A stretch of 34,225 bases of DNA, taken from a virus. The position numbers were made by a program, and so were the translations under genes. The number at the start of each line of letters is the position of its first letter. The stretch's first letter is position 1. Location of the stretch: positions 1 through 34,225 of IMG/VR virus record IMGVR_UViG_3300042564_001227; one strand, 5' to 3'. Below are positions 8,182 through 23,988 of this stretch, in pieces. The notes below the pieces were generated by a model that searched no databases, was not told where the DNA came from, and saw only the letters and a program-made list of their open reading frames with translations.

Positions 8182-8224
8182 AAAAAGATAGACCCCAAGC
8201 GAACCTACACGCTTGGGGTCTATC
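8182..8224 (-). terminator. Strong terminator downstream of the major capsid gene
   Basis: A perfect 15-bp stem (8187-8201 with 8210-8224, arms GATAGACCCCAAGCG/CGCTTGGGGTCTATC) with an 8-base loop. On the minus strand it is followed by TTTTTG (8186-8182). It lies 19 bases beyond the capsid stop and before the glycosyltransferase cassette, so the cassette should be expressed less than the capsid. Confidence 0.93.
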
Positions 8225-8242
8225 AGCTTTTGTGCTAAGGGC

Positions 8243-11530: not shown

Positions 11531-11532
11531 GC

Positions 11533-12870
11533 CTAGACCTCGTAAACAGCTTCTGGGTCATCTGGGTTGACCTGAGCAACACCTTGTAGCTGAACTGAAG
11601 GTAGTCCGGTGTGTGGAATTTCTGGCAAGCCAAGGGCAGCTAGGACTTCTTCAGGTGCGAAACCTGACTGAATTAGCTGAGCAACCATAGTCACGCGCTT
11701 TTCAGTTGTGATTACTTCGGTGTCTGCTAGTGCGATGTTGGCTAGTGGCACTCTGTACTGGTCACCAGCAGTAACTGGCTCCATGTCCTCTAGTCTGCGA
11801 ACATCGTTTGTTGACATAAAGCCAGCCTGAGTTGCAACCGAGTATGACCGAACTCTAGCCTCAAGGTCAGCTCTTAGTAGGTCAGCGAACTGAAACTTGA
11901 TGAAAGCATCGCCTGGCAGTAAGCGTGAGAAAGCTGCTTCTACCTTTTCGGCTAGTGGGCGTAGGGTCATAGAAACAAATTGAAGGTTGTTTTGCTCTAC
12001 CGAAGCGTAGCTTGCAGTTCCTGGTACACCTAGAAGGTGAAGTGGCACATTGAAAGCTCTTGCGATTTCTTCTACTGCAAACTTGCGTGACTCTAGTGCT
12101 TGGCTTCTTTCGGGATCTGTTTGAGTAGAAACAAACTTAGCTCCACCAGATAGAACGCCTGTCTTGTGTGCGCGTCTTGTTCCGTTGCGGTGACGAGCAT
12201 CAAATCCGTCAGCTAGTTGTTTTGCTTGCTCAGAAGTCAAGTTACCAGGAAACTCGATAACTCCAGCAGCCGAAGCGCCTGTACCGAAGAATCTAGCTGC
12301 GTAATCGTTTAGAGCGATGTTTAGACCGAGTGATTGTTTTAGTGTTTCTACTCGGCTCATGCCTTTTAGCTCACCAGGCAGAATCAGGTCAACAATGTGA
12401 ATGACCTCATCGCTGTTTAGCAGTCTAGGTTCGTCTTGGTATTTGTAAACCTTGCGACCAATCTTGGAACGCTCTACTTCCATCTTTTCTGGGTCTAGGT
12501 TTACTAGGTTGACAACTTGACCTTGTGCATCTCTAAATACTCTGGTGTAAGAGTTGCCATGAACCAACAAGCTTGAAAAGACCTGCTGAAAGAAAGCTGC
12601 TCTTGTGCTTAGGTCAATGTCCGGCTGGTCTAACCACATAGGTCTAGGGTTTAGAGGTCGGCGAGTAGAACCGAGCCTTAGATACGCCCCACATGGCAAA
12701 GTCGAGATCGTGTCAGAAATCAAACTGACTGCGGAGAAAAAGGCAACAATCTCAAACGACTTTTTGGTTGTTACATTTACTCCAGCTTCGGACTGTAAGC
12801 CCCAAGGCTCACCAGCACCCCAAACAGTCTGAAAGCTGACTGCTCTTTGCTCGAAAAGATTACCTAGCAT
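11533..12870 (-). CDS. Portal protein
   Basis: A 445-residue HK97-type portal, the dodecameric ring through which DNA enters and leaves the head. Recognisable parts: VNVTTKKSFEIVAFFSAVSLISDTIS near the N-terminus, LLVHGNSYTRVFRD, YKYQDEPRLLNSDEVIHI, LKQSLGLNIALNDYAARFFGTGASAAGVIE, and FAVEEIARAFNVPLHLLGVPGTASYASVEQ followed by FVSMTLRPLAEKVEAAF. Gene order (terminase, small membrane gene, portal, protease, capsid) is canonical. ATG 12870 overlaps the stop of the preceding small membrane gene as TAATG. Confidence 0.95.
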   Translation of the reverse strand: MLGNLFEQRAVSFQTVWGAGEPWGLQSEAGVNVTTKKSFEIVAFFSAVSLISDTISTLPCGAYLRLGSTRRPLNPRPMWLDQPDIDLSTRAAFFQQVFSSLLVHGNSYTRVFRDAQGQVVNLVNLDPEKMEVERSKIGRKVYKYQDEPRLLNSDEVIHIVDLILPGELKGMSRVETLKQSLGLNIALNDYAARFFGTGASAAGVIEFPGNLTSEQAKQLADGFDARHRNGTRRAHKTGVLSGGAKFVSTQTDPERSQALESRKFAVEEIARAFNVPLHLLGVPGTASYASVEQNNLQFVSMTLRPLAEKVEAAFSRLLPGDAFIKFQFADLLRADLEARVRSYSVATQAGFMSTNDVRRLEDMEPVTAGDQYRVPLANIALADTEVITTEKRVTMVAQLIQSGFAPEEVLAALGLPEIPHTGLPSVQLQGVAQVNPDDPEAVYEV

Positions 12871-13007
12871 TATTTACCTCGTTCAATGGCGATACCGAAT
12901 ACTAGAGCGCCAGCTCCAAGTAGAATTAGACCTAATGGTGGGTAGATAAAGGCTGCACCGATTGAAATAACCAAAATGCCTGATGCCTGAAGTATTGTCG
13001 CTGTCAT
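12870..13007 (-). CDS. Small membrane protein between terminase and portal
   Basis: A 45-residue protein (MTATILQASGILVISI...AIERGK). It is almost entirely hydrophobic, with two spans separated by YPP: about 5-21 and 25-42. It starts 7 nt after the terminase stop, with AGGTTGG ahead of the ATG, and shares TAATG with the portal start. Tiny two-span proteins occur between terminase and portal in several actinophages, but I know no function. Membrane tethering during head assembly is speculation. Coding potential is supported by the tight overlaps and the coherent membrane profile. Confidence 0.72.
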   Translation of the reverse strand: MTATILQASGILVISIGAAFIYPPLGLILLGAGALVFGIAIERGK

Positions 13008-13014
13008 TACCAAC

Positions 13015-14550
13015 CTAATTGAAAAATTGCGGTGTTAGTTCATCCTCTAGTTTACTGCTATTTATACACCTGTCTAAAGCGATAACAGCAGCAATAGCAG
13101 CGTCAATCTTTCTTGGGCTACTTGCGGATTCTTTTGTGATTCTTCTTCCCTGTCTGTCTGACTTTACTACTGTGTTGTCTAAATGCCTTGTAAGCACAGG
13201 GTTTCCATCGTGGGTGATGGTTTGCTCTGTTACAGCGTCATAGAAGATTTGGCAAGCCGGAACTATTCGAGCGGCCGAGTATGTGGGAAAGGCTACAACT
13301 GGAAAACCCATGTCCTCAAGCATTACCATCGTTTTTTGCCAGCGCGGGGGGTCAAAGACAAGTTCTCGGACATTGCGGTACTTGGTGCAGAACTGAATAA
13401 TGACATCTTCAACTTCTAGGGTCGGAACACGCCAGCTTGCGTCATCTTCTGAGGTCTTTTCCCAGACGGCGATTGTAAAGATGTGTGGCTTGTCGTTTTC
13501 ATCTCTTGGCAACCGAACGCCGATTACTGCTGTCGAGTCATTTGACCAAGATCCGTCAAAACCGATGATAAATTCGTCATCTTCGTTGTAATCGGACTCA
13601 ACCTCTAGTTTTTCCCATGCACCTGACGGCAACCAGCTATCTTTTGACGAAACCCATTGGTTTACCCTTTTACGGCGAAATTCTGACTCTGGAGTTCGCA
13701 AAACGGCTGATTCAAAGTCTGACCGAGCGCAGATGTCATCAAAGCCAGGGTTAGACAGTTCCCAAGTCTTAGGGTCATCGTGTGCCATCTCTGAAGGTGC
13801 TTCCCACCAAGCCATAAAGAAAGTTGGGTCATTTATTTCACCTCTGGCAACCTTTTGACCATACTGATACATTGCGTAAGCGATTGAATCCCCGCCTGTG
13901 CTGTCAGACTTTACGCCAGCAGTTGTAATGGCAATCATTGTGGCGATGTTACCTCTAGCACCTTGAGCAAGTTGCATAACATCCCATAGCTCACGATTAG
14001 GCTGTGCATGAGCCTCATCGAAAATCGTCATAGTTGGTGACAGACCTTCCTTGCTAAAGGCTTCGGCTGACAACACTCGATAGACCGAACCGGTGCTTGG
14101 CACCTCGATAGCATCTCGGTAAAGTTTGCAGATTTCTGATAATTCGCTTGCTTCTATTAGTTTTTTGGTGTCACCGAATACTAAACGAGCCTGATCCTTG
14201 TCAGCGGCACAAGAATAGACTTCAGCACCCCGAATACCTGAGCCAACAAGCCCATAAGCAGCAACAACCGACATTAGCGAGCTTTTTCCGTTTTTGCGCG
14301 GAACGCCTACATAAGAAACTCGGTTTTTTAGTCCTTTGTCATCGTGAGCGAACAAATAGCGTAAAAGTTCCTTTTGCCAGGGTCGTAAGTCCATAGGAGA
14401 GCCAGCTTTACCTGCAACCGAGTCTTTTGTAATGATTCCGAAGGCTTCGGCAAAGTCAATGACATCTTCACCCTCTCCGTTGGCTAATTCTGCCTCAGAA
14501 ATAGGTGTCAGCCAAAGCGGGGGCCAGTTACTGACCTTTTTCAAGCTCAC
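13015..14550 (-). CDS. Terminase large subunit
   Basis: The packaging ATPase and nuclease. I take GTG 14550, preceded by AGAAGG at good spacing, giving 511 residues. A start at 14580 would add ten residues within the small-subunit gene. Motifs, numbered from 14580: Walker A VGVPRKNGKSS (about 91-101), Walker B TIFDEAHA (about 185-192), an ITTAG coupling motif, and an RNase H-like nuclease with FDGSWSNDSTAV, VFDPPRWQKTM and SPRKIDAAIA. It resembles the HK97/phi-C31-type Terminase_1 family of siphoviruses with cohesive or headful ends. It overlaps the small subunit by 23 nt. Confidence 0.95.
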   Translation of the reverse strand: MSLKKVSNWPPLWLTPISEAELANGEGEDVIDFAEAFGIITKDSVAGKAGSPMDLRPWQKELLRYLFAHDDKGLKNRVSYVGVPRKNGKSSLMSVVAAYGLVGSGIRGAEVYSCAADKDQARLVFGDTKKLIEASELSEICKLYRDAIEVPSTGSVYRVLSAEAFSKEGLSPTMTIFDEAHAQPNRELWDVMQLAQGARGNIATMIAITTAGVKSDSTGGDSIAYAMYQYGQKVARGEINDPTFFMAWWEAPSEMAHDDPKTWELSNPGFDDICARSDFESAVLRTPESEFRRKRVNQWVSSKDSWLPSGAWEKLEVESDYNEDDEFIIGFDGSWSNDSTAVIGVRLPRDENDKPHIFTIAVWEKTSEDDASWRVPTLEVEDVIIQFCTKYRNVRELVFDPPRWQKTMVMLEDMGFPVVAFPTYSAARIVPACQIFYDAVTEQTITHDGNPVLTRHLDNTVVKSDRQGRRITKESASSPRKIDAAIAAVIALDRCINSSKLEDELTPQFFN

Positions 14551-14977
14551 GCTTTGTCCTTCTGGCGAATAGTTCCTCAAGCTTTGACTCTCGCTTGACT
14601 TCGGCTAAACCGAGTCTTGATCTTGCTTCTGGTGAGAAACCGAGTTTGTTCATGTTTGACGAGATTATGTTTTCAAGGTCATTGAGTTGTTTGTACAAGT
14701 GCCAGTCATAGTCGTTCTGCAAGCGTTCCATAATCTCACGCCGCCTGTCGTATTGTTCGCAAGTCATCTGGAGCAGGTGAACATCTATCGCACCAATCCA
14801 AGGCAAGCCGTATTTATAGACATCATCCCAGAGCTGTAAGCCGTCTTGACCGAGTTCTCGCACAGGCTGGCGCTCACCTTTAGGGATAGAGGCTAGTTCT
14901 CCGGCTTTAGGCAGGGTTTGATGGCCTGGGTTACCAAGCAAGCGTTTCTGCTCAAGTGGCTTTGCTGGATTCGGCAT
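14528..14977 (-). CDS. Terminase small subunit (P27-like)
   Basis: A 149-residue basic protein (MPNPAKPLEQKRLLGNPGHQTLP..., ending RRTKRELEKGQ). The Pro-rich, basic start with NPG and the central GLQLWDDVYKYGLPWIGAIDVHLLQMTCEQYDRR match the P27-type small terminase pattern 'g...W......l...gll...D...l...c....r'. The C-terminus is a charged helix that usually contacts the large subunit. It recognises the packaging site, normally just upstream of its own gene, and the long non-coding GC-rich stretch at 14978-15530 lies exactly there. GGGAG precedes ATG 14977. Confidence 0.88.
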   Translation of the reverse strand: MPNPAKPLEQKRLLGNPGHQTLPKAGELASIPKGERQPVRELGQDGLQLWDDVYKYGLPWIGAIDVHLLQMTCEQYDRRREIMERLQNDYDWHLYKQLNDLENIISSNMNKLGFSPEARSRLGLAEVKRESKLEELFARRTKRELEKGQ

Positions 14978-15258
14978 TTTTCTTTATCTCCCTTTGTTTC
15001 AAGGCTAGCAGAAAAACTTTGAACCTAGAAAAAGTACGCAAAGGTGCGAGCGGGGTGTCGGTGGGTTCGGCGTGTCAAAGATTTGGGCCACTCCGGGGGT
15101 CTGCCTAGGGGGCATGGCTAACGGCTATCTATTGCGGGCGTGTATGGCGTGTATGGGGGCGTTCCCTAAGTCCCCCTAGTGTTTTGCTTCTTTGATTAGT
15201 TAACGCTTCTATGAGCTTTGCAAGGCGTTAGGCAGGGCAGGGCGCTAGGGCGTGCCTA

Positions 15259-15274
15259 GGCAGGGGGGCGGGGG
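15259..15274 (+). repeat. G-rich direct repeat, copy 1
   Basis: GGCAGGGGGGCGGGGG. It recurs with one extra G at 15451 in the same orientation, 192 bp away. It may be a terminase-binding or cleavage element, or chance in G-rich sequence. Confidence 0.5.
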
Positions 15275-15445
15275 TATCCCTAATAATTAGCTAGTGGCCT
15301 AGGCTCCCCCTTATCTAATAAGGCGGGGCGGCTTTAGTTTTTATTTTCGCGGCTTGATCTTCAGGCTCAGCGCTACTAGTGCAGGCGGGCGGGGCCGGTA
15401 TTGTCTAGCTCTATCTTGATCTTGATTAGACTCAAGCGGTCGCTA

Positions 15446-15474
15446 GGGGCGGCAGGGGGGGCGGGGGGCCAGGG
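15446..15474 (+). repeat. G-rich direct repeat, copy 2, and potential G-quadruplex
   Basis: Four G tracts (4, 7, 6 and 3 G) separated by loops of 5, 1 and 3 bases satisfy a quadruplex pattern on the plus strand. The segment includes the second copy of the GGCAG-G-run element. Cohesive ends of actinophages are often G/C-rich, so a cos nick site here is plausible but not shown. Confidence 0.5.
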
Positions 15475-15479
15475 TAAGA

Positions 15480-15513
15480 CTAACGCCCTAAGCGGTTAGG
15501 CCTAGGGCGTTAG
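15480..15513. repeat. Perfect 11-bp inverted repeat downstream of the small-gene operon
   Basis: CTAACGCCCTA (15480-15490) pairs with TAGGGCGTTAG (15503-15513) around a 12-base loop. It is 18 bases past the stop of gene 15531-15791. There is no T run on the minus strand, so it is either a weak terminator or part of the packaging/origin region. Confidence 0.6.
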
Positions 15514-15530
15514 GTGTTGCAGTGTTGCGG

Positions 15531-15791
15531 TTATGCTTCAGCTATTGTCAGAGATCTAAGGCGGTTATCGCTTGCAGTGTCATTAGCTGCCACTTTATAG
15601 CTCAGGCGCTTAGTCTTTACCCGCTCCATTCTCTCGACTATCGCGGCCCTTATTGCACGCTTGGCCGCTCTCATAGAGTTGCTAACTATTGCTTCAGCTT
15701 CTCCAGTGTTGCCTAGTGCTATTGGGTAGACAATATGGCAGTGCCATATTCCGAAGCCATCAGCATAAGTGCTTAGTTCATAATCCTTCAT
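15531..15791 (-). CDS. Hypothetical protein, last gene of the GC-rich operon
   Basis: An 86-residue protein (MKDYELSTYADGFGIWHCHIVYPIALGN...) with a basic helical middle (SNSMRAAKRAIRAAIVERMERVK) and a polar tail. I recognise no family. AAGAAGGG lies 9 nt before the ATG as part of a leader repeated in front of several neighbours. The ATG shares ATGA with the stop of the preceding gene, so translation is coupled. Codons are GC-richer than in the structural genes. Confidence 0.65.
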   Translation of the reverse strand: MKDYELSTYADGFGIWHCHIVYPIALGNTGEAEAIVSNSMRAAKRAIRAAIVERMERVKTKRLSYKVAANDTASDNRLRSLTIAEA

Positions 15792-16066
15792 GGCTTTATT
15801 CCCTTCTTGCTCTCACCCGCGATTATGCCGCCAAACAATACGGCGCTGAAAGCGGTTAGGCCATAAGTCGCGCGGCTAATCATTCTCCAAGCCTTCACCC
15901 ATTCAGCACCCTTTAGACTCTCAGGGGCGGCGCTTGCAGGCTTAGGCGCGTATATGGCGCGCCGTTGCTCAGGGGTTAGCTTCATGGCTCCCGCTATTAG
16001 TTCAGGATCATCCACCCGCCTAACCTTCTGAGCTGCCAGAATAGCGCGCTGCCTTGCAGGGTTCAT
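15788..16066 (-). CDS. Hypothetical membrane-anchored protein
   Basis: A 92-residue protein. The N-terminal part is basic and helical (MNPARQRAILAAQKVRRVDD) with MKLTPEQRRAIYAP, and an Ala/Pro linker follows. There is one membrane span near the C-terminus (about 66-84, ATYGLTAFSAVLFGGIIAG) and a short basic end (ESKKGIKP). Its start overlaps the upstream gene stop by ATGA, and its stop overlaps the next start. Function is unknown. Confidence 0.65.
   Translation of the reverse strand: MNPARQRAILAAQKVRRVDDPELIAGAMKLTPEQRRAIYAPKPASAAPESLKGAEWVKAWRMISRATYGLTAFSAVLFGGIIAGESKKGIKP
15796..15809 (-). promoter_or_regulatory. Repeated ribosome-site leader, copy 3
   Basis: CAAGAAGGGAATAA on the minus strand, identical to 16488-16501 and 17229-17242. 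It supplies the ribosome site of gene 15531-15791 even though it lies inside the upstream gene's coding sequence. Confidence 0.6.
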
Positions 16067-16218
16067 TGTCTGCCATCCTGAGTGCAGTCATCATAGACTT
16101 TAGGGCCGTCTTCACAGGTGCAGAATCCAAACAATTCAACCTGCTTAACATGGGTTAGGTCTGCCAGTTCGCTCCAGGATAATTGGGGCGGGTCATCGTT
16201 AGTGATTAACTCGCTCAT
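16063..16218 (-). CDS. Small acidic Cys-containing hypothetical protein
   Basis: A 51-residue protein (MSELITNDDPPQLSWSELAD...CTQDGRQ). It has a FGFCTCEDGPKVYDDC segment with three Cys that could bind a metal. It starts at ATG 16218, sharing one base with the stop of the upstream gene (TAATG), and ends by overlapping the next ATG (ATGA at 16063-16066). The two overlaps and the filled gap are the main evidence that it is real. No family was recognised. Confidence 0.65.
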   Translation of the reverse strand: MSELITNDDPPQLSWSELADLTHVKQVELFGFCTCEDGPKVYDDCTQDGRQ

Positions 16219-16481
16219 TAGTTTTCATTCCCTTCTTTAGCCTTCATAGCTTCAAGGTGTTTTTTATTAGCTTCTTGCATCCTTGCTTGCTGCTCAGCGT
16301 GCTTATCTGCCAAGTATTGCTCAGCATCTAAGGCCCTTACTAATTCATCCAGGGCGATTATGTCGCGCCTAGTTGCATCATCTAGCAAGTCCACCCATTC
16401 CAGCCAGTCATGCAGGCGCTCTAGTGCCACCCAGGCAGTTTTAGTGGTTATCTCGATCTTCTCATTCTCATTAGTGTTCAT
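16218..16481 (-). CDS. Hypothetical acidic helical protein
   Basis: An 87-residue protein (MNTNENEKIEITTKTAWVALERLHDWLEW...). It is strongly helical: WVALERLHDWLEWVDLLDDATRRDIIALDELVRALDAEQYLADKHAEQQARMQEANKK. The second half is probably a coiled coil. The repeated CAAGAAGGGAATAA leader lies 5-6 nt before ATG 16481. It is the third gene of the operon starting at 17376. It may be a small protein-protein inhibitor or scaffold. Nothing specific can be said. Confidence 0.65.
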   Translation of the reverse strand: MNTNENEKIEITTKTAWVALERLHDWLEWVDLLDDATRRDIIALDELVRALDAEQYLADKHAEQQARMQEANKKHLEAMKAKEGNEN

Positions 16482-16487
16482 GTTGCT

Positions 16488-16501
16488 TTATTCCCTTCTT
16501 G
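16488..16501 (-). promoter_or_regulatory. Repeated ribosome-site leader, copy 2
   Basis: CAAGAAGGGAATAA on the minus strand, the ribosome site of gene 16218-16481. It is identical to the leaders at 15796-15809 and 17229-17242. A partial copy (AAGAAGGGAAT, 16227-16237) serves the gene starting at 16218. Confidence 0.6.
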
Positions 16502-16506
16502 TTTTA

Positions 16507-17223
16507 TTAGTTGATCCATGAGCCGCCACAAGGGCATGCCTTAACTTCTTCTAGGTCTTTAAAGGTTTCAATAGTGCCGCCATATTCTCCAGTTTCCAAT
16601 TCCAGCTCATAATATCCACGCACGCTTAGGCGGTTATCACATTCTTCAGAGCTGCAACTAAAGTAAGCAGAATCAGCGTTAAATATGAATTCTTCTTTAC
16701 TTGATACCTTAAACACTTTTGGTGAAGTGTAGCCGCCGCGAACATCAGCGCCACCATGAACTTGCAGGATTAGGTATTCAGTTCCACCCATTCCAAAGAA
16801 TGTACCTTGCAGGGTTTGATCTAATAGCCAGTCTTCAAAGTTGTAGCTATTAAAGTTCCAGCGTGCATTACTGTAAAACTCCCCGCCTTCACCTGGCACG
16901 CCTAACTTATCAAGCCAAAGCTCATCTATCTCTAGCCATGACTCATCGGGGTAATCAGTGGCGAACGCGTGATATGCCGCCGTTAACGCGCGGTCATAAT
17001 CTAAGTTATTTACTAAGTGCCAGAATGTTGACCTGCCAACTTCTGGATATTCTCCACCCTTAAAATAGGCTTCAGGCTCAGCCTTAAAATCTTCTAAGGT
17101 TTTAGCCTGGTTGCGCTGCCATGCGCGGCCAGTAGCGCCGCCGCTATCTAAGAAGTGCGTGCCGGTGTTTTCGGTTAGCATTCCATAGATTATGGCTTCA
17201 GTGTTTTCGGTTATTGTTTGCAT
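16507..17223 (-). CDS. Conserved phage protein of unknown function with Cys-rich C-terminus
   Basis: A 238-residue acidic protein. The N-terminus IIYGMLTENTGTHFLDSGGATGRAWQRNQ is a signature I recall from uncharacterised proteins in phages of several hosts ('MLTeNTGthflDSGGaYGRhWeRNq'). The middle is aromatic-rich (EFYSNARWNFNSYNFEDWLLDQTLQGTFF, then EYLILQVHGGADVRGGYTSPKVF). The C-terminus has CSSEEC and CPCGG, which could form one zinc site. It is the largest protein of the GC-rich operon and follows the 42-residue membrane gene. Conservation and position suggest an early host-takeover or DNA-metabolism role, but this is not established. Confidence 0.8.
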   Translation of the reverse strand: MQTITENTEAIIYGMLTENTGTHFLDSGGATGRAWQRNQAKTLEDFKAEPEAYFKGGEYPEVGRSTFWHLVNNLDYDRALTAAYHAFATDYPDESWLEIDELWLDKLGVPGEGGEFYSNARWNFNSYNFEDWLLDQTLQGTFFGMGGTEYLILQVHGGADVRGGYTSPKVFKVSSKEEFIFNADSAYFSCSSEECDNRLSVRGYYELELETGEYGGTIETFKDLEEVKACPCGGSWIN

Positions 17224-17228
17224 CTTTT

Positions 17229-17242
17229 TTATTCCCTTCTTG
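17229..17242 (-). promoter_or_regulatory. Repeated ribosome-site leader, copy 1
   Basis: CAAGAAGGGAATAA on the minus strand, 6 nt before ATG 17223. Only genes of the 15.5-17.4 kb block use this leader. Other genes in the window use varied AGGAG/AAAGG sites. Confidence 0.6.
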
Positions 17243-17247
17243 TTTTT

Positions 17248-17376
17248 TTAGTTAGTTGCTAGGTATTCAATAGCTGAGGCCACCGGTTCCCAAAGCAATG
17301 AGCCTAGGATTATTGCGATCATCAGCGTTGCAGTTAGTAAGCCGCTATTCAGTTGCTGCCAGTCTCTATCGGTCAT
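17248..17376 (-). CDS. Tiny single-span membrane protein, first gene of the operon
   Basis: A 42-residue protein (MTDRDWQQLN..., ending YLATN). A polar 11-residue N-terminus is followed by a hydrophobic span (about 13-29, LLTATLMIAIILGSLLW) and a short amphipathic end. GAGAAGGGAACTG precedes ATG 17376. It is the first gene after the A-tract promoter (17416-17444) and ends 25 nt before the 238-residue gene. A strong ribosome site, a sensible membrane profile and the operon position support coding. Function is unknown. Confidence 0.65.
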   Translation of the reverse strand: MTDRDWQQLNSGLLTATLMIAIILGSLLWEPVASAIEYLATN

Positions 17377-17415
17377 CAGTTCCCTTCTCTCAGGCCTTGT
17401 CTTTGCCTTGTCCCA

Positions 17416-17444
17416 ATTTTGGCAGTTTTTTGCTTTTTTTGCAA
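17416..17444 (-). promoter_or_regulatory. Candidate promoter of the small-gene operon
   Basis: On the minus strand TTGCAA (17439-17444) and CAAAAT (17416-17421) are spaced by 17 bases. They resemble sigma-70-type -35/-10 boxes, with A-tracts directly upstream (17445-17460) and in the spacer. The predicted start would give a leader of about 35 nt to ATG 17376. Confidence 0.5.
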
Positions 17445-17460
17445 GTTTTTTGCTTTTTTT
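17425..17460. repeat. Phased A-tract tandem repeat (likely curved DNA)
   Basis: GTTTTTTGCTTTTTTT occurs twice (17425-17440 and 17445-17460), separated by GCAA, with a 20-bp period. The four T/A tracts (6, 7, 6, 7) have centres averaging about 9.5 bp apart, close to one helical turn. This should bend the DNA or act as an UP-like element at the adjacent promoter. Confidence 0.75.
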
Positions 17461-17726
17461 AGTTTTCGGGCGTGTCGCGCTCTAGACTAGCGCGGTAATC
17501 CAGCGGCTCCAGTTTGCAGACAAGGCGTAAGCCTGGCCGCCTTACTTCTTATCTATGCGCTGCCAGTGTCTGCCGGCTTCTAATTTTGCTTTATTTAGTG
17601 CCTAGCAGTTTCGGGCGGTTATCGTGGCGCCATGTCTAGGTAATTAGGGCGCGGTTAGTGTCGCGGCGTGATCCTCTAAAGCGGGTTCAACTAGGGCGCG
17701 GGTGTGGCTCTCAGGCTCTCAGAATG

Positions 17727-17742
17727 TCGAACAAGTGTTCGA
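17727..17742. promoter_or_regulatory. LexA/SOS-box-like operator 1
   Basis: TCGAACAAGTGTTCGA, a full match to the actinobacterial SOS box TCGAAC-N4-GTTCGA. It is followed by two more copies of GAACAAGTGTTC within 40 bp. Host LexA, or a phage repressor with the same specificity, should bind. Confidence 0.8.
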
Positions 17743-17751
17743 TTAGGCCGT

Positions 17752-17767
17752 TAGAACAAGTGTTCCG
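17752..17767. promoter_or_regulatory. LexA/SOS-box-like operator 2
   Basis: TAGAACAAGTGTTCCG with the intact core GAAC-AAGT-GTTC (17754-17765). Its outer positions are imperfect. The core is 25 bp from box 1. Confidence 0.7.
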
Positions 17768-17780
17768 AACAAGTGTTCGA
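17765..17780. promoter_or_regulatory. LexA/SOS-box-like operator 3
   Basis: CCGAACAAGTGTTCGA with core 17767-17778, 13 bp after the core of box 2. The two sites abut and may bind cooperatively. Confidence 0.75.
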
Positions 17781-17824
17781 GCAGATTTTTAGGGTCTTTT
17801 TCGGTCATTCTGGCAGAGTTTCCA

Positions 17825-17887
17825 ACCGAATCCTGACCGAATTTTTCAACCGAATCTGAAACTTTTTCAACCGAATCCGAACCGAAT
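17825..17887. repeat. Five ACCGAAT direct repeats (iteron-like)
   Basis: ACCGAAT starts at 17825, 17836, 17849, 17870 and 17881, all in the same orientation, with spacings of 11, 13, 21 and 11 bp and T-rich spacers (ATTTTTC, CTTTTTC). Same-face direct repeats in an AT-richer patch next to the replication block resemble initiator iterons. They could alternatively be operator sites. Confidence 0.65.
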
Positions 17888-17894
17888 ATCGGAA

Positions 17895-18215
17895 TTATTC
17901 GAGTGGCTTGTTTCCTCGGCTGGCGTTACAGGATCTATGTGCAGCAGCAAGTGGGCTGTCAGGGTCACCTGGTCTAAGGTGGTCAGCTTGCCAAGGGTCG
18001 TTTAGTCTTGCGCCTTCGTGACAGATGTGGCACTCATAAGCGTTCTCTCGAACTACTCTTGCTCTCATCTTGTAGTCACCGGCATACTGACCTGTTGCTA
18101 GTTTTCTAGCTCGGCGTTTCATCTCTGCTGCATCATCCCAAATCTTCTGGTGAGTTTCACAGCGCGAACTTCCGTTAGTAAGTCTGTTGCAAACTAGGCA
18201 GGGCATCTTAGGCAT
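17895..18215 (-). CDS. HNH endonuclease
   Basis: A 106-residue protein from ATG 18215. It has an N-terminal zinc-like set (C6, C9, C19, H22), a basic helix (AEMKRRARKLATGQYAGDYKMRARVVRENAYECHIC) and an HNH core: C62/C65, ADHLRPG (His79), then AAHRSCNASRGN (H93, C96, N97). Stand-alone HNH enzymes near phage terminases assist cos cleavage, and this one is 3 kb from the terminase, so it may instead nick DNA for replication. A second in-frame ATG at 18263 behind an identical G8 tract would add 16 residues. It is the last gene before the control region. Confidence 0.85.
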   Translation of the reverse strand: MPKMPCLVCNRLTNGSSRCETHQKIWDDAAEMKRRARKLATGQYAGDYKMRARVVRENAYECHICHEGARLNDPWQADHLRPGDPDSPLAAAHRSCNASRGNKPLE

Positions 18216-18275
18216 ACCCCCCCCTCTCTTTTTTGACTTTTTCTGGCAAGATACTTCGAGCATACCCCCCCCTAC

Positions 18276-18455
18276 TTATTTTTCTTTTGAAGCCCAACCA
18301 CTACCTTTGAAAGTTACGGCTGGAACCGAATCATAGACTCTAACCAAATCTTTGACACAGTTAGTGCAAAGCGGTGTTCGTTCGGGTTCTGTAATTCCTC
18401 GGATGACTCGCATTTTTAGGTCACAGGTGTTGCACTTGTAATCGTAGGTAGGCAT
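18276..18455 (-). CDS. FmdB-type zinc ribbon protein
   Basis: A 59-residue protein starting MPTYDYKCNTCDLKMRVIRG with a second pair at PLCTNC (C8, C11, C30, C33) and a FKGSGW ending. Both the MPxYxYxCxxC opening and FxGxGW are hallmarks of the FmdB putative regulatory family. It may bind nucleic acid or act as a small transcription factor. ATG 18455 overlaps the methyltransferase stop as ATGA. Some phage and many actinobacterial genomes carry such proteins. The target is unknown. Confidence 0.85.
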   Translation of the reverse strand: MPTYDYKCNTCDLKMRVIRGITEPERTPLCTNCVKDLVRVYDSVPAVTFKGSGWASKEK

Positions 18456-19870
18456 CAGAATAATCCTTGAGGTTGGGCTTCTATGTTTTCTTTTGCCTCG
18501 GCAACTTTGGCTTCAGCGTGTTTCAGTCTGCCCTCGATGATAGGCCAGTAGTCCTCGGTTAGTTCTATTCCAATAAAGTCAAAGCCCTCAAGGATTGCTG
18601 CCTTACCTGTTGAGCCTGAGCCTGTAAATGGATCTAGGACTGTTCCGCCTGGTGGTGTGATGAGCTTGACTAGGTATTGCATAAGAGCTGTTGGCTTGAC
18701 TGTTGGGTGGAAGTTCTTTGCTGGCTGAGTTGAGAACTTATCCTCTACTGAGCCTTGAGCCATCCCAGCACTTTCAGGGTTTTTGCCGTTGAATACTTTG
18801 CCCTTTTCAGGCAAGTCCTCAAGCCCCTCGTTCCTATCACGCTTTGATGCTTTAGCTACATAAAAGAATCTTGATGCTCCACCGCTATCTGGTTGTTTCT
18901 GTGCGTTCTGGGAGTGAAAGGTTTGCCCATTGGTTGAGCGACCTGCGTTGTTATGACCTATACAGTTACCAAGCTCATCTCGCTTATTACAGTGCGTTCC
19001 TGGCCCACTACCTTTAGTTATTCCACTCTGCTCATCAAGTAGCTCTGCTGTGTATTCGTCAAGGATTAGGTTTGCTGGCCATCTGCCTGTGTGTTCTTTA
19101 TAGGTTGAGGTGTCGCTACCTCGGTCTGGCTCTCCACCAGCAAAGGTTCCTTTAGGTGCGTGGTGTGTGCTTACCTTGTCTGTCCCTATCCTGCTGGCAT
19201 CTATGTTTAGCCCACCTGTTCCATGAGTTAGGACATTCTCTGCAACTGTCTTTTCACCTAAAGGTTTGCGAGCAACAACTATTGGTTCAAGTGCTGGCTT
19301 TAGTGCTGTTCCCCATCCTTGCCATTGTTTTGCTTCAAGTGAGAGGTCTTTTATTTCTCTCTCGGCAAGCTTGGTTTCTCTGCCGGCATGCATTGACCCA
19401 CCCTGCATACCGATGTCAACAACCTCTGTTCCTACAACCTCACCTTGATAGCCAGATTGCTTGTCAATCGCTTTGGCAACATCCATTGACTTAGGAAATC
19501 CTGACCCATACACCCACCCGATTGAATCCCTAATCTCAAACCCTGCCATGCGAATAGAGATACCCATGAGGTCATAGGTTCGGGTTCCTGCAAAGGCGAG
19601 CAAGTGTCCACCTGGCTTTAGCACTCTTAGGCACTCATCCCATATAGCAGGTGGTGGCACAAAGGAATCCCAAGACTTACCCATGAATCCTTTGCCTTCA
19701 GGGATGTGAGAACGATCACCTGATGCCCATTGCTGGATTGCCTTGATGATGTAGTCAGGGTCAGGGTTGCCTAGTCCGTAAGGTGGGTCGGTGACTATGG
19801 CATCTATGCTGTTGTCGGCAAGTGTTGGTAGTAGGTCTAAGCTGTTGCCTTTTAGTATTTTGTAGGTCAT
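18455..19870 (-). CDS. DNA methyltransferase (N4/N6-type, DPPY)
   Basis: A 471-residue enzyme from ATG 19870, preceded by AGAGAGAG. A TTG at 19888 is less likely. Catalytic motif IV IVTDPPYGLG lies near residue 28, then ALLAFAGTRTYD-like strands (LKPGGHLLAFAGTRTYDLM). A long variable middle (about 120-370) probably holds target recognition. The SAM-binding motif DPFTGSGSTGKAAILEGFDFIGIE is at the C-terminus. The order IV...I is that of beta-class amino-methyltransferases. It probably protects phage DNA from host restriction, since no partner nuclease is adjacent. It overlaps the FmdB-type gene by 3-4 nt. Confidence 0.92.
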   Translation of the reverse strand: MTYKILKGNSLDLLPTLADNSIDAIVTDPPYGLGNPDPDYIIKAIQQWASGDRSHIPEGKGFMGKSWDSFVPPPAIWDECLRVLKPGGHLLAFAGTRTYDLMGISIRMAGFEIRDSIGWVYGSGFPKSMDVAKAIDKQSGYQGEVVGTEVVDIGMQGGSMHAGRETKLAEREIKDLSLEAKQWQGWGTALKPALEPIVVARKPLGEKTVAENVLTHGTGGLNIDASRIGTDKVSTHHAPKGTFAGGEPDRGSDTSTYKEHTGRWPANLILDEYTAELLDEQSGITKGSGPGTHCNKRDELGNCIGHNNAGRSTNGQTFHSQNAQKQPDSGGASRFFYVAKASKRDRNEGLEDLPEKGKVFNGKNPESAGMAQGSVEDKFSTQPAKNFHPTVKPTALMQYLVKLITPPGGTVLDPFTGSGSTGKAAILEGFDFIGIELTEDYWPIIEGRLKHAEAKVAEAKENIEAQPQGLF

Positions 19871-19888
19871 CTCTCTCTTTTCTTGCAA

Positions 19889-21064
19889 CTAAAGCTTGTA
19901 AACAGTTCCCTGAAAGTTCTCACCCTTTGTAAGTGGGAACACTAGCAAGCCTGGGTCGCTGTCATCTCCACCCATACCGGTTCGATACCAGCTAGAGCCA
20001 GCATCAAGGGTTGGGCATTGAATCACCCATCGGCTGTGGTTGTTGCGTCTGCCTGACTCTTTGACTGTGAGGTGATGGAAGTGTCCATGAATCAGGATGT
20101 CTGCATCTTTTACTGGCTGGTTGCCATGCGACTGATTACGCCACCATTGAACTATGCCGTCAGGTCTTGAGGCTTGGTGTCCATGAACTAGGCCGAGAAT
20201 CATCTCGTTGTCACCCCAAACATCTAAGGCAAGTGACTCATCGTTAGCCTGTGGCTCATAGAACTTGACTGGCAAGTCTGTTTCCTGTGCGAGCCTGGCA
20301 AGCTGGCGTTGAATGTGAATCCCCCAGTCATCCGTTGCTGTGCCAAGTTTCTGTCTGCCTGATCTCCAAGCACAATGGTTGGAGCCAACTGAGGCAGCAA
20401 CTATTGGAGCGTAGTTAGCCATCAGCTTTAGGGTTTCCCACTCGAAAGTTGCCTCAAGGTCTACTTGTTGCATCAGGCTTAGGTCGTTGGTTCGCATTGG
20501 GTTGCCACCTGACTCGAAGCCCTCGATGCTGTCACCGACATTTAGGAAGTAGATAACATCTGGCTTTTCCTTTTTTAGATAGCTGGCAAGGTTGGCTTGC
20601 TTCTCAGCGATGCGTTCAATCAGCTCAGGTGTGCCACCTCGGATGTCACCTGCCTTGCCTGTCTGAGTATCTGACCAGCAGACAACAACAGCCTTATCAA
20701 GTGTTTCTTTTGGCTTGGCAACTTTGAGTCCCTTGCGAGTGTTGGCATAGAGGGTTGGCAGGTCAATCTCGACTTCAGAGCGTGTTCTGAAGTTGAACCG
20801 CCAGCTAACTAACCAATCGCCACCTTCACGCTGTTGCCATCGGCTAGTGCGTATCGGGCCGTAAATCTCAATCTTGTCAGGGTCGAAACCTTGCTCGATT
20901 AGGAACTCATCAAAGTTAGGTTGATTGCCGGTAGTCGGTGGGGTTGTTGCCTCACCTAGTGTGCCGTCAAACTCAACAGCAGGCCGCCAATCTTTCGGTG
21001 GTGTTACCTTTGGTGCTGGTTCCAGGTTATCTAGCACAACTGCACTCTTTCCTTCTATGAGCAA
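19889..21064 (-). CDS. Calcineurin-like metallophosphoesterase
   Basis: A 391-residue protein. An N-terminal ~120-residue region (ending around SWRFNFRTRSEVEIDLPTLY) is of unknown role. The phosphoesterase domain follows, with metal motifs VVVCWSDTQTGK (Asp), YFLNVGDSIEGF (GD), VGSNHCAWRSG (NH), LVHGHQAS and LIHGHFHHL (GHxH). Such enzymes in actinophages sit with replication genes and may process DNA or nucleotides. SbcD-like nuclease activity is possible but no capping domain was seen. The start is uncertain: TTG 21064 lies inside the upstream HTH gene (38-nt overlap), and GTG at residue 10 is an alternative. Confidence 0.85.
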   Translation of the reverse strand: MLIEGKSAVVLDNLEPAPKVTPPKDWRPAVEFDGTLGEATTPPTTGNQPNFDEFLIEQGFDPDKIEIYGPIRTSRWQQREGGDWLVSWRFNFRTRSEVEIDLPTLYANTRKGLKVAKPKETLDKAVVVCWSDTQTGKAGDIRGGTPELIERIAEKQANLASYLKKEKPDVIYFLNVGDSIEGFESGGNPMRTNDLSLMQQVDLEATFEWETLKLMANYAPIVAASVGSNHCAWRSGRQKLGTATDDWGIHIQRQLARLAQETDLPVKFYEPQANDESLALDVWGDNEMILGLVHGHQASRPDGIVQWWRNQSHGNQPVKDADILIHGHFHHLTVKESGRRNNHSRWVIQCPTLDAGSSWYRTGMGGDDSDPGLLVFPLTKGENFQGTVYKL

Positions 21065-21248
21065 GAATAGGTTTCTCGCTGATTGGGATTCCCCTAGCTG
21101 TTAGTTCTCTAGCTAGTGCTGGTGCTTTCCAAGATTCATTACTTACAGCATTGACAAGTATTACTTGATCCTTGCTGTCCAACGATTCCAAGATTGACCT
21201 TACCTTGCAGCTCGGTTTCCTCTGTGTCGGTGTCATTCCTTCTAGCAT
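21027..21248 (-). CDS. Small helix-turn-helix DNA-binding protein
   Basis: A 73-residue protein from ATG 21248 behind AGGGAAAA. The stretch VRSILESLDSKDQVILVNAVSNESWKAPALARELTARGIPISEKPILAHRRKECSC fits the actinophage pattern 'l.eLd.ed...l..al....ws...iar.L...g..is..tv..HRrg.C.C'. This is a helix-turn-helix followed by a CxC end. It probably binds DNA as a regulator. The first 110 nt overlap gene 21139-21462 in another frame, and the end overlaps the phosphoesterase start. Confidence 0.78.
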   Translation of the reverse strand: MLEGMTPTQRKPSCKVRSILESLDSKDQVILVNAVSNESWKAPALARELTARGIPISEKPILAHRRKECSCAR

Positions 21249-21462
21249 TGTTTTCCCTTTCAGTTTCTCTTATCAAGTTTAGGGCTAAGTCCCCGATTTC
21301 TGGCTCAAGATAGTGCCACTCGACTTGCATGATTCTTTCTAATAATCTGGCAAGGTTGCGCCTGATTGCTTCTAGGTCACTTGACCAAACCAGGTTCTCA
21401 TCCTTTAGCAGGTTGATTGCCTCAAAGATTTCACGCTCATCTGCGTTTGTGAAGTGTGTCAT
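21139..21462 (-). CDS. Hypothetical helical protein overlapping the HTH gene
   Basis: A 107-residue protein (MTHFTNADEREIFEAINLLKDENLVW...). The first 75 residues are amphipathic helices (LEAIRRNLARLLERIMQVEWHYLEPEIGDLALNLIRETE). The last 37 residues, in the overlap with the HTH gene, look unstructured and end NTCQCCK. The ATG shares ATGA with the stop of the preceding mini-gene. The overlap of 110 nt is unusually long. The C-terminal part may be a by-product of the out-of-frame HTH gene rather than selected sequence. Function is unknown. Confidence 0.65.
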   Translation of the reverse strand: MTHFTNADEREIFEAINLLKDENLVWSSDLEAIRRNLARLLERIMQVEWHYLEPEIGDLALNLIRETERENNARRNDTDTEETELQGKVNLGIVGQQGSSNTCQCCK

Positions 21463-21581
21463 TTGACCCCCCTAGTAAAGAAGGCTACAACTAAACTTTT
21501 CAGTTGCATCCTTTTGTATGCCCAATGAACTCGAACGATACGCCAGTTGATAGGTTGCTTTTCAGCTCTGTGCTTTGCCAA
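21459..21581 (-). CDS. Possible mini-gene, basic 40-residue protein
   Basis: TTG 21581 behind GGTGAGGGACA encodes MAKHRAEKQPINWRIVRVHWAYKRMQLKSL... ending TRGVK. It is very basic, with a hydrophobic end. It overlaps the stop of gene 21562-21786 and ends as ATGA with the next start, filling an otherwise empty gap. The rare start codon and short length keep confidence low. Confidence 0.42.
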   Translation of the reverse strand: MAKHRAEKQPINWRIVRVHWAYKRMQLKSLVVAFFTRGVK

Positions 21582-21786
21582 TGTCCCTCACCGCCTCAAT
21601 CACTTCGACTACTCGCTCAAGGGTGTCAATGTCTATGCTCATGCTTAGGATTGCGTCTTTATGTAGTGAGTAGATAACCTGCTCGCTGAAATACTCAGCC
21701 ATGTCTTTTGCGCCTTGCTCGTATCCTTTGGCAAAGGCTCTCTCTCTGCCTCTGCGGATGCGTGACGCCCAATCGAATCCGGTCAT
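21562..21786 (-). CDS. Hypothetical protein
   Basis: A 74-residue protein (MTGFDWASRIRRGRERAFAKGYEQG...). The basic N-terminus is followed by helices (AKDMAEYFSEQVIYSLHKDAILSMSIDIDTLERVVEVIEAV). The 'F..G...G..dm.....' pattern also appears in gene 21908-22108 and could mark related small replication-region proteins. Start and previous stop overlap as ATGA. I recognise no function. Confidence 0.65.
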   Translation of the reverse strand: MTGFDWASRIRRGRERAFAKGYEQGAKDMAEYFSEQVIYSLHKDAILSMSIDIDTLERVVEVIEAVRDIGKAQS

Positions 21787-21926
21787 TTTTCAGTTTCTCC
21801 AAGGATTGCTTTAGCTCTGAACTCGATGTCCTTAGCTGTCTTGATTAGCTCAGCCAGCTCTTTGTTTATCATTACCAAGCGAGCCTCAAACTCAAGCAGC
21901 TTGATGTCTATCTCTTTTGGCCCCAT
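21783..21926 (-). CDS. Small coiled-coil protein
   Basis: A 47-residue protein (MGPKEIDIKLLEFEARLVMI..., ending GETEK) that is almost entirely one amphipathic, charged helix suited to a coiled coil. ATG 21926 overlaps the upstream stop by 19 nt. The end shares ATGA with the next start. Function is unknown. Confidence 0.6.
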   Translation of the reverse strand: MGPKEIDIKLLEFEARLVMINKELAELIKTAKDIEFRAKAILGETEK

Positions 21927-22108
21927 TGTGTTTTCCTTTCGGCTAGGTGTGCTTCCATGTCAATTCGGTACTGACCTTCTATCTCGTCAGCGATGTCTTG
22001 AACTGTAATAACTACATTCTGCTCTTGGTGGATACGGATAAAGTCAAGGACTGACTCTCTCTGGTATCTAACGCCAGCTTTGAATCCCTCTGTGTAAAGT
22101 GTCTGCAT
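21908..22108 (-). CDS. Hypothetical protein
   Basis: A 66-residue protein (MQTLYTEGFKAGVRYQRESVLDFI...). The opening 'GFkaGvryqRe.vldfI....' resembles that of its neighbour 21562-21786 and is followed by an acidic middle and the ending ERKTQWGQKR. GAGGTAATC gives a good ribosome site before ATG 22108, 2 nt after the upstream stop. No family was recognised. Confidence 0.65.
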   Translation of the reverse strand: MQTLYTEGFKAGVRYQRESVLDFIRIHQEQNVVITVQDIADEIEGQYRIDMEAHLAERKTQWGQKR

Positions 22109-22110
22109 GA

Positions 22111-22353
22111 TTACCTCGATGAGATGTTGTATTCAGGGTCAACATAGATTTCAATGTTGTCCACGATCTCGATAACCCTAGCGATTGCTTTGGTTGGTAC
22201 TGGGTAGGCAGCTTTGATGAGGCTAAGAATTTCATTCTTCATCAACATTCTGCCCATGTAGATTCCATCTGACTTTGCAACACCAAAGTTGTACTGGTGA
22301 GGCTGGAAGTCGGTTACTGCAAACTCAAGTGCTTCTGGATTGTAATTAGGCAT
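22111..22353 (-). CDS. Hypothetical protein
   Basis: An 80-residue protein (MPNYNPEALEFAVTDFQPHQ...). It includes GVAKSDGIYMGRMLMKNEILSLIK and a C-terminal VIEIVDNIEIY. The phrase 'G...Gr......il.li' recalls the neighbouring small genes 21562-21786 and 21908-22108, which may share an ancestor. It overlaps the upstream gene by 8 nt. Function is unknown. Confidence 0.65.
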   Translation of the reverse strand: MPNYNPEALEFAVTDFQPHQYNFGVAKSDGIYMGRMLMKNEILSLIKAAYPVPTKAIARVIEIVDNIEIYVDPEYNISSR

Positions 22354-22528
22354 TTTCTCTCATTTCTTTGTAGGTTGTTTTGATATGTTCTACTAGCTCA
22401 ATTCGAGCTTTGGCTTCGTTGCGGCTGACCGAATCGTTGCCAGGTATCCCTGCTTGTAGTGTGAACTGATTTTCAGTCCAACGCTGTGCCTCGGCAATAA
22501 TTTTTTCAGCTAGTTTTTCCTCGTTCAT
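22346..22528 (-). CDS. Hypothetical small protein
   Basis: A 60-residue protein (MNEEKLAEKIIAEAQRWTENQF...) with an N-terminal amphipathic helix, a GIPGNDSVSRNEA turn and a basic C-terminal helix. CAGGGAT precedes ATG 22528, which overlaps the stop of the preceding membrane gene as ATGA. No family was recognised. Confidence 0.62.
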   Translation of the reverse strand: MNEEKLAEKIIAEAQRWTENQFTLQAGIPGNDSVSRNEAKARIELVEHIKTTYKEMRENA

Positions 22529-22695
22529 TTGTTATCCCTGTTCTCTGCGTATAGCGATTGCATTGTTACCAAGAAGGCAACCAGCACACCGACAATACCG
22601 ACAGTCAAACCGAGTGTTGCGTCTATCAGTTGCACGATAAAGCTGGACAACATGATGACCGAAAGTGAAACTATGTACACAATCATTCGGGCCAT
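22525..22695 (-). CDS. Small two-span membrane protein
   Basis: A 56-residue protein (MARMIVYIVSLSVIMLSSFI..., ending YAENRDNK) with two hydrophobic spans (about 4-22 and 28-48) joined by LIDATLG, and a polar end. AGAAAGGGG precedes ATG 22695, and the stop overlaps the next start (ATGA). It is first in a run of small genes behind a candidate promoter at 22733-22738. Function is unknown. A holin role is unlikely given its place among replication genes. Confidence 0.68.
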   Translation of the reverse strand: MARMIVYIVSLSVIMLSSFIVQLIDATLGLTVGIVGVLVAFLVTMQSLYAENRDNK

Positions 22696-22732
22696 TATGA
22701 ACCCCTTTCTGCAAGCTTTTGCTTACAGTTCA

Positions 22733-22738
22733 ATAATA
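22733..22738 (-). promoter_or_regulatory. Candidate -10 box for the small-gene run
   Basis: TATTAT on the minus strand in the 101-bp AT-rich gap between the resolvase stop and the small membrane gene. The AT content and position fit a promoter, but no good -35 box is present. Confidence 0.3.
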
Positions 22739-22796
22739 GGGTTTTTTAGCAGAATTTGGGAGATTTTTGCCTATTTCTGGCAATGTTACAAAATCG

Positions 22797-23195
22797 TTAC
22801 AAAAGGCTTTTTACGCTGATAGTCGCGCCTGGTTCAATGCCCTCGGCATACAGCTTTCTAGCTGAGATACGGACTATGCGGCTGTCATCGGTCACAACGC
22901 CTGAGTCGGTCAAAGAATCGCCTACTGCGCGAATTAGCTTGTCTAGGTCTGGTGACACGCTTGGAAGCGGTCTGGTGACTGATTTAGGTTTTGGCATGTA
23001 GAAATTGACCACAAGTTCACAGGGGTCATCTATTGGAGTCCAGTCACTCGGTAGGGCTTCTGTTGCTGCTAATGCGATTGCCTTACGCCAAGCCTTATGC
23101 TTCGAGCTGTTGACTTGAACAATTCTGCCTTGCATGATGGCGTGTGATCCTTGGCTGGCTGGGTCACCGGTAACGCTAAAGCTTACCTCTGCCAT
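22797..23195 (-). CDS. rusA: RusA-like Holliday junction resolvase
   Basis: A 132-residue protein taking ATG 23195 (MAEVSFSVTGDPASQGSHAI); a start six codons earlier is possible. Family features are the FxVxGxPxxQGS opening, the middle HKAWRKAIALAA and the acidic metal-binding segment SPDLDKLIRAVGDSLTDSGVVTDDSRIV with the conserved Asp pairs. It resolves four-way junctions or debranches DNA before packaging, in concert with the exonuclease and annealing protein upstream. Its start overlaps a small membrane gene by about 20 nt. Confidence 0.9.
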   Translation of the reverse strand: MAEVSFSVTGDPASQGSHAIMQGRIVQVNSSKHKAWRKAIALAATEALPSDWTPIDDPCELVVNFYMPKPKSVTRPLPSVSPDLDKLIRAVGDSLTDSGVVTDDSRIVRISARKLYAEGIEPGATISVKSLL

Positions 23196-23343
23196 GTAGT
23201 TCCCATGCTGCAATTATCGCAGCAATAGTGTAAAGAATACCGAAGGCTAGTCCCGCGCCACCTAGAACGCTAGTAGTTTGCGTAGATAGGTTTATTAGTA
23301 TGCCGGCGGTGATGGCTGGGACTAACCAACGGAGATTACTCAA
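23176..23343 (-). CDS. Possible two-span membrane protein overlapping rusA
   Basis: TTG 23343, overlapping the SSB-like stop (TTGA), opens a 55-residue frame: MSNLRWLVPAITAGILINLS..., ending WELHGRGKL. It has two hydrophobic stretches (about 6-19 and 28-47). It fills the gap between the SSB-like and rusA genes and ends 20 nt inside rusA. It has no clear ribosome site and would depend on coupled translation. Similar tiny membrane genes occur elsewhere in this genome. Confidence 0.5.
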   Translation of the reverse strand: MSNLRWLVPAITAGILINLSTQTTSVLGGAGLAFGILYTIAAIIAAWELHGRGKL

Positions 23344-23672
23344 AAGGGAAGTGACTCCCTGTGTGTCGGCTCAAAGATTTCCTTGATTGCCGATAGTGGC
23401 TCTGCTGGAACTACCTTTGGGTTGTTGATGCTGACCTTGATTGACTGCCTGGCTTCGCCCTCTTTGTTAGTCCAGTTGTCTATCTCTGCTGAGTAGAGTC
23501 CCTCGACCTGTAGGGTGTCACCGACCTCGAAGGTGGTTGGCTGTGCAAGCCAGACTGTGTAACGCTTGTTGATTGTTTCGCCAGCCTTGCTTTGGAATGA
23601 TTCTGTTAGCTCGATGCCTTTGCCCTCGTAGAATACTCGGCTAATTGCACCCTTTACTTTGATTATTGCCAT
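23340..23672 (-). CDS. Single-stranded DNA-binding-like protein (OB fold)
   Basis: A 110-residue protein from ATG 23672 with AGGAAACAAG ahead. A start at 23714 is less likely. It is beta-rich: AIIKVKGAISRVFYEGKGIELTESF, NKRYTVWLAQ, FEVGDTLQVEGLYSAEI, RQSIKVSINNPKVV, as expected of an OB fold. It ends with SLPF, close to the hydrophobic SSB tail that recruits replication proteins. The location next to the DnaB-type helicase gene supports a replication role. Sequence identity to classical SSB is low. Confidence 0.7.
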   Translation of the reverse strand: MAIIKVKGAISRVFYEGKGIELTESFQSKAGETINKRYTVWLAQPTTFEVGDTLQVEGLYSAEIDNWTNKEGEARQSIKVSINNPKVVPAEPLSAIKEIFEPTHRESLPF

Positions 23673-23703
23673 CTCTTGTTTCCTTATCTCTTGTTGTTTT
23701 ACT

Positions 23704-23979
23704 CTAGTGGTCACCTATGACATGGTTGGGGTTGGTGCAGTCAAGGTGTCCACAAGACCTAGTGCCTGGCAAGACTGGCTTGCCGTCAAATAGTGGGATG
23801 GTAAGCGTGAGCTTGTCAAACTCACCCTGCCAAGGGATACACTTCTCGGATCCATACTTGATGACGAGAGCTTGGTGCATCCGACAGGATTGGCACTTGA
23901 GGTCTTTACGCTTGCGCTTTTGGGTGTTGACCTTCCAAGTAGAGCCACACCGACAGCACAAAGCAACATTGTCATCCAC
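23704..23979 (-). CDS. Zinc-binding protein, HNH-related
   Basis: A 91-residue protein with C8, C9, C12, C29, C32 in a zinc-ribbon-like first half. The C-terminal PGTRSCGHLDCTNPNHV (C76, C81, N83, H86) is the zinc-loop pattern found in HNH homing-type endonucleases. No separate catalytic His is evident, so it may be a binding remnant rather than a nuclease. The start (ATG 23979) lies 9 nt after the helicase stop. Such small genes are common beside actinophage replication genes. Confidence 0.7.
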   Translation of the reverse strand: MDDNVALCCRCGSTWKVNTQKRKRKDLKCQSCRMHQALVIKYGSEKCIPWQGEFDKLTLTIPLFDGKPVLPGTRSCGHLDCTNPNHVIGDH

Positions 23980-23988
23980 GCCATAATC

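Follow-up and report, generated by a model that had tools for sequence, protein, structure and literature searches.

By analogy, the closest working counterpart of the locus described here is the Bacillus thuringiensis phage GIL01, which has no dedicated repressor of its own; its promoters P1 and P3 are repressed by the LexA protein of the host, and P3 carries tandem LexA boxes (PMC4551915, PMC6182141). Outside lysogeny, the closest conceptual analogue is found in the CtrA-controlled phages of alphaproteobacteria, for which 'lytic deferment' has been proposed (PMC9437464). Among actinobacteria, the LexA consensus of Streptomyces venezuelae has been experimentally defined as tCGAAC-N4-GNNCGa (PMC9380542). 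Pontimonas phage phiPsal1, whose host belongs to Microbacteriaceae, was judged lytic by its authors; they detected it a single time, at about 2% of the stoichiometry of the host, and a second DNA preparation did not contain it (PMC6106888).

The window, that is, the whole stretch of 34,225 nucleotides analysed here, is an IMG/VR virus record. Since its first and last 127 bases (1-127 and 34099-34225) are identical, it can be regarded as a complete circular-map assembly, namely a siphophage genome of 34,098 bp plus the 127-bp end repeat. PHROGs scans of the window recognised terminase, portal, capsid, tail and lysin genes, and the rest of the siphophage gene set includes a RecE-type exonuclease, a RepO-like protein, DnaB helicase, RusA, a second exonuclease, a DNA methyltransferase and an HNH endonuclease, with nearly all genes on the minus strand. 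The contigs of many relatives share one start approximately 468 bp ahead of TerL. This puts cos near 15045, and the boxes are then about 2.7 kb away from the right-hand terminus of the linear genome. Among named phages, the nearest relative is phiPsal1, which resembles the window phage in TerL (53%), in shared replication and structural genes, in carrying WhiB and LexA boxes, and in having no integrase. No DNA relatives were found among named phages over 11000-24000, and a single scan of bacterial genome contigs for prophage relatives returned only distant terminases (28-53% identity), so that the host is presumed from phiPsal1. The window phage looks like a virulent phage of aquatic actinobacteria.

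The first-pass annotation had reported three SOS boxes at 17727-17780, one of them a complete actinobacterial LexA box, and both statements hold. The 12-mer GAACAAGTGTTC occurs three times in the window, at spacings of 25 and 13 bp, and all three boxes lie inside a 670-bp stretch between annotated genes (17224-17894), with the HNH gene on one side and the right-arm group of small genes (15531-17376) on the other (Table 1). Compared with the actinobacterial box TCGAAC-N4-GTTCGA, one copy is perfect, one has a single mismatch and one is weak. The scores were obtained with a matrix of 66 lexA-upstream boxes from genomes of the same order as a Cellulomonas genome; the matrix contains no phage sequences and represents the presumed host order as reached through phiPsal1; against a ceiling of 25.9 bits on this matrix, the maximum over 300 first-order (dinucleotide) shuffles of the window was 18.4 bits. 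Short database matches to the array DNA were at chance level.

Table 1. Features of the window around the LexA-like boxes, with the WhiB gene (positions are those of the window).
Feature	Position	Strand	Remarks
LexA box A, TCGAACAAGTGTTCGA	17727-17742		perfect palindromic 16-bp box; core GAACAAGTGTTC 17729-17740; third box in transcription direction; 24.5 bits
LexA box B, TAGAACAAGTGTTCCG	17752-17767		weak outer bases; core GAACAAGTGTTC 17754-17765; 10.4 bits
LexA box C, CCGAACAAGTGTTCGA	17765-17780		single outer mismatch; core GAACAAGTGTTC 17767-17778; first box in transcription direction; 19.1 bits
Repeat array ATTCGGT(T), five ATTCGGT copies	17824-17890	-	directly before the boxes in transcription direction; 21-bp tandem unit by TRF
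HNH endonuclease	17895-18263	-	closes the upstream operon; constant neighbour of the boxes
A-tract array ending in extended -10-like element	17417-17460	-	read by eye in relatives; repeat found
42-aa putative membrane protein	17248-17376	-	first ORF of the right-arm operon
238-aa protein, phrog_11344	16507-17223	-	related to genes at the right end of Mycobacterium and Gordonia phages
Remaining right-arm operon: g87, g92, g86, 51-aa ORF	15531-16481	-	small fast-changing genes before cos (about 15045)
WhiB-type regulator	29555-29824	+	Pfam PF02467, E 1.5e-15; only plus-strand gene recognised

The same motif is found at SOS genes of the host group, provided that the host order reached through phiPsal1 is the right one. 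Of 20 small order-mate genomes, 12 contain the pattern TCGAACANNTGTTCGA, with one to five copies each, and a reversed control pattern gave no occurrence. The products of the genes beside these sites, named from protein starts with no family search, resemble ImuA, DnaE2, a Y-family polymerase, UvrA, UvrB, RuvA and RarA, and a 16-mer identical to box A adjoins an SOS-type gene in one order-mate (G005). The host-order consensus also agrees with that of S. venezuelae. Searching bacterial genomes for LexA specificity, a check proposed at first pass, gave a positive result for the presumed host order. The accompanying remark that three boxes are more than usual for an SOS gene has to be qualified, because the lexA promoters of this order mostly hold three (32/52) or four (14/52) boxes. 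These promoters resemble the phage array in box number, in consensus and, in some cases, in tight tandem arrangement, but their usual spacings are 15-16 and about 52 bp, as opposed to 13 and 25 bp in the phage. They differ as well in the centre dinucleotide, which is strongly oriented in the phage boxes (YY 61, RR 7, mixed 3) and unoriented in the bacterial lexA-promoter boxes (YY 59, RR 43, mixed 45). The one-way centres may have arisen by tandem duplication, and a second constraint besides the fit to LexA is possible.

Conservation of the boxes was examined at 80 loci gathered via the neighbouring HNH protein. In all 37 close relatives that are readable there, two to four boxes lie just past the same HNH gene, about 115 to 260 bases after its stop; their absence from close relatives, named at first pass as an outcome that would refute the idea, is thus not what was found at these homologous loci. 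Taking the 80 loci together, the 52 kb after HNH contain 120 boxes and the remaining 444 kb contain 42, which corresponds to a 24-fold enrichment. The first box pair is exactly 13 bp apart in 23 of 23 representatives, in surroundings of rapidly changing non-coding DNA, and the third box mostly follows 25-26 bp beyond the second; two loci, L208 and L211, carry four boxes at 13-bp steps. Averaged over alignment columns, the information content is 1.6 bits within boxes 1 and 2, falling to 0.75 in the spacer and to 0.33 beyond the array. When the whole database was scanned for box pairs with a 13-bp offset, 28 stretches came back, mostly of this lineage at this locus. The LexA-box sites are thus conserved in a non-coding, regulatory position, as expected from sequence for a phage of the GIL01 type. 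Two perfect boxes are impossible at an offset of 13 bp and possible at 12 bp, and 13 is nevertheless invariant, suggesting that the spacing is fixed by something besides the best match to LexA. The overlapping LexA boxes of colicin genes are a possible parallel.

Looser relatives often have a single box after HNH, several have a second box or cluster 1.9-2.9 kb further on, and several have no box. Where present, the boxes often mark one or two of the operon boundaries in the corresponding arm and precede promoter-like sequences. The typical cassette runs in the order ATTCGGTT copy, hairpin, box, TAACG repeats, promoter-like sequence and gene, and in several cases approximately 50-100 bp separate the box from the promoter-like sequence downstream. 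ATTCGGTT lies near each box in L232, L236 and L242. Between box and promoter-like sequence, a TAACG/GATAACG motif is repeated in L232, L236, L239, L242 and L249, and it could possibly be the site of another regulator. LexA-like boxes were also seen in DNA of other kinds. Nine of them occupy about 700 bp in L270 (6584-7273) and in L273 (8185-8874), which belong to a lineage of 58-59% GC without gene matches here, and strong pairs of 24.5 bits each, 32 bp apart, occur in L087, L091, L096 and L099, which have no gene match to the window phage and include one contig of 137 kb.

Functions of lysogeny were sought in 22 records, consisting of the window, 20 related contigs and phiPsal1; the controls worked, and many of the records may be fragments, the window being complete. 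Tyrosine integrase (PF00589), serine resolvase (PF00239), S24 (PF00717) and the LexA DNA-binding domain (PF01726) were each found in 0 of 22; the last of these results also speaks against a LexA-like domain of the gp6 type, the partner known from GIL01. HTH_3 gave no match above the cut-off in the related records searched, and neither a phage-encoded LexA nor a cI was found in the 22 records. The sequences therefore point to a phage without a dedicated repressor of a recognised family. The first-pass view of a phage with no recognisable repressor or integrase stands for these families, and it had overlooked the WhiB-type regulator, which is encoded divergently from the early RecE operon and is present in all 22 records, the window included. 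The further suggestion of plasmid-like persistence finds no support, given that no integrase or lysogeny repressor was found, the lack of any partition gene recognised in PHROGs scans or Pfam scans of small ORFs, and the status of phiPsal1, which was deemed lytic and was missing from the second DNA preparation.

The locus shares with GIL01 the lack of a dedicated repressor, the presence of several LexA boxes of host type where operons begin (at P3 of GIL01 in tandem), a predicted single direction of transcription, and no integration. However, GIL01 is temperate, with a demonstrated linear extrachromosomal prophage, whereas the window phage looks virulent and is a siphophage of actinobacteria. 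The GIL01 boxes lie in promoters, and no promoter overlap was found for the window array. GIL01 also encodes gp7 in addition to the truncated LexA homologue gp6, and its dinBox2 and dinBox3 are separated by about two helix turns, compared with 13 bp between boxes 1 and 2 in the window lineage. The CtrA phages are similar in their dense sites for a host master regulator within a large intergenic region and in the control of small genes of unknown function; the regulator there is CtrA, not LexA, and its binding and regulation were experimentally tested, in contrast to the sequence analysis presented here. Two sequence features of such phages, namely no lysogeny module found and clustered sites of host-regulator type, are seen in the window. 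In phiPsal1 (L105), three strong boxes of 24.1, 20.1 and 24.3 bits at 8039-8259 have no obvious promoter, and they are situated within the convergent 3′ ends of glycosyltransferase and methyltransferase genes, not after HNH.

The surroundings of the array provide information on what it could control. The ATTCGGTT repeats abut the boxes; close relatives have 4-9 of them, looser relatives often a single copy. The A-tract block with its -10-like element, which lies about 300 bp downstream of the array, is likely to be the promoter of the right-arm operon; this element is clearer in relatives, where it comes with a short ATGGC..GCCA-type leader, and the block was not called in a consensus promoter scan. 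No conserved promoter overlapping the array was found in the close clade, either by eye in the aligned relatives or by the consensus scan. The idea that host LexA is plugged into the main control region of the phage is therefore upheld as far as the conservation of the sites and their fit to the presumed host order's LexA box are concerned, and not as regards overlap with a promoter. The right-arm genes are small and quickly replaced, and the phrog_11344 protein is the one with known relatives. Its structural model is confident (pLDDT 82) and, compared with solved structures, gave no match, only uncharacterised phage proteins being similar; the protein has an invariant GAD-RGGYT stretch and C-terminal cysteines. 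A relative near the right end of Saintus-type mycobacteriophages adjoins an annotated anti-restriction gene, and this placement suggests that the right-arm genes are cargo for host takeover or counter-defence.

Our preferred reading, to which we give a probability of roughly 60%, is that the three boxes form a host-LexA operator array gating the right-arm operon. The array would mark the boundary between the operon of replication, exonuclease and HNH genes and the right-arm operon, whose genes are small and accessory. As long as the cell is undamaged, the array would be covered by LexA, with two dimers in the tight 13-bp register and one 25 bp away, and transcription into the right arm would be kept low; DNA damage, including any that the infection itself causes, would then stimulate LexA cleavage through RecA and release the right arm. 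We infer from the sequence that LexA binds these boxes in the real host, a point with good support, and that its effect is repression of the right arm, relieved by damage. The mode could be a roadblock of read-through or repression of a promoter not recognised here. Since the array has yielded no promoter, a block to read-through from the operon upstream is no less likely than the occlusion of a promoter in the classical way. Several observations count against a simple LexA operator, namely the lack of an array-overlapping promoter, the invariant 13 bp, the oriented centres, the looser relatives without boxes, and a matrix whose host order was reached through phiPsal1.

Some of these observations would fit an array bound by a phage protein of replication, partition or packaging, whose likeness to LexA boxes would be coincidental or secondary and which, with the ATTCGGTT repeats and A-tracts, would constitute an origin or another nucleoprotein site. 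The rigid 13-bp period in all 23 representatives, the four units in register in L208 and L211, the one-way centres, the adjacent repeat array and the A-rich tract are in line with this explanation. We consider it unlikely, however, because the outer bases fit the host LexA box nearly perfectly, even in the single, array-less boxes of looser relatives, a LexA-like DNA-binding domain is absent from the 22 records, and the replication genes are 6-8 kb away from the array. The position of the boxes would be unimportant if they acted as a sponge, with the growing number of phage genomes drawing LexA away and so inducing the host SOS response to the phage's advantage. This would suit phiPsal1, whose boxes, inside the ends of two structural-region genes, are hardly able to control a promoter; the window lineage, by contrast, keeps its boxes at one operon boundary, few boxes lie in coding regions, and three sites per genome are few, all of which makes a sponge quite improbable.

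The palindromes could also act as RNA hairpins, serving as terminator or processing sites in read-through transcripts. They are inverted repeats, the doubly changed symmetric box TCGTACACTTGTACGA of L217 retains its symmetry, and small hairpins occur near the boxes of looser relatives. Nevertheless, overlapping boxes cannot fold simultaneously, and the sequence follows the LexA box rather than symmetry alone. No terminator-like site was found in the region and Rfam gave no match, so that a terminator or known RNA at the array was rejected, and hairpins seem a very improbable explanation. Chance, or ancestry without function, has nothing in its favour beyond the shared ancestry of the nearest relatives, and it is scarcely credible in view of the enrichment after HNH, the fixed spacing in diverged DNA and the high scores on an independent matrix; a chance origin of the boxes was rejected on the basis of the shuffles, the 24-fold enrichment and the 13-bp spacing.

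Returning to the LexA operator array, the relatives keep the row of boxes in the same place, and the phage therefore probably reads the DNA-damage alarm of its host to time part of its gene expression. The co-option of LexA by phages is already known from GIL01; what is new is this lineage, the 13-bp lattice and the absent lysogeny module. A more far-reaching account, which we put forward only tentatively and regard as doubtful as a whole, would be that of a widespread virulent lineage of aquatic actinophages in which the host SOS repressor is the only recognised repressor-type switch and the rigid 13-bp LexA lattice serves as a damage-gated roadblock, with the accessory arm fully on only in damaged cells, which would amount to lytic deferment through LexA in the absence of lysogeny. 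In the papers cited, the phages that borrow LexA are temperate, and the SOS response is their way out of the prophage state. A conserved LexA array without an integrase or recognised lysogeny repressor, if true, would mean that apparently virulent phages read host damage too, a point of relevance to the way in which damage by sunlight modulates infection of aquatic actinobacteria. The array variants would, moreover, offer an evolutionary test of the tight packing of LexA dimers at 13 bp across many natural variants.
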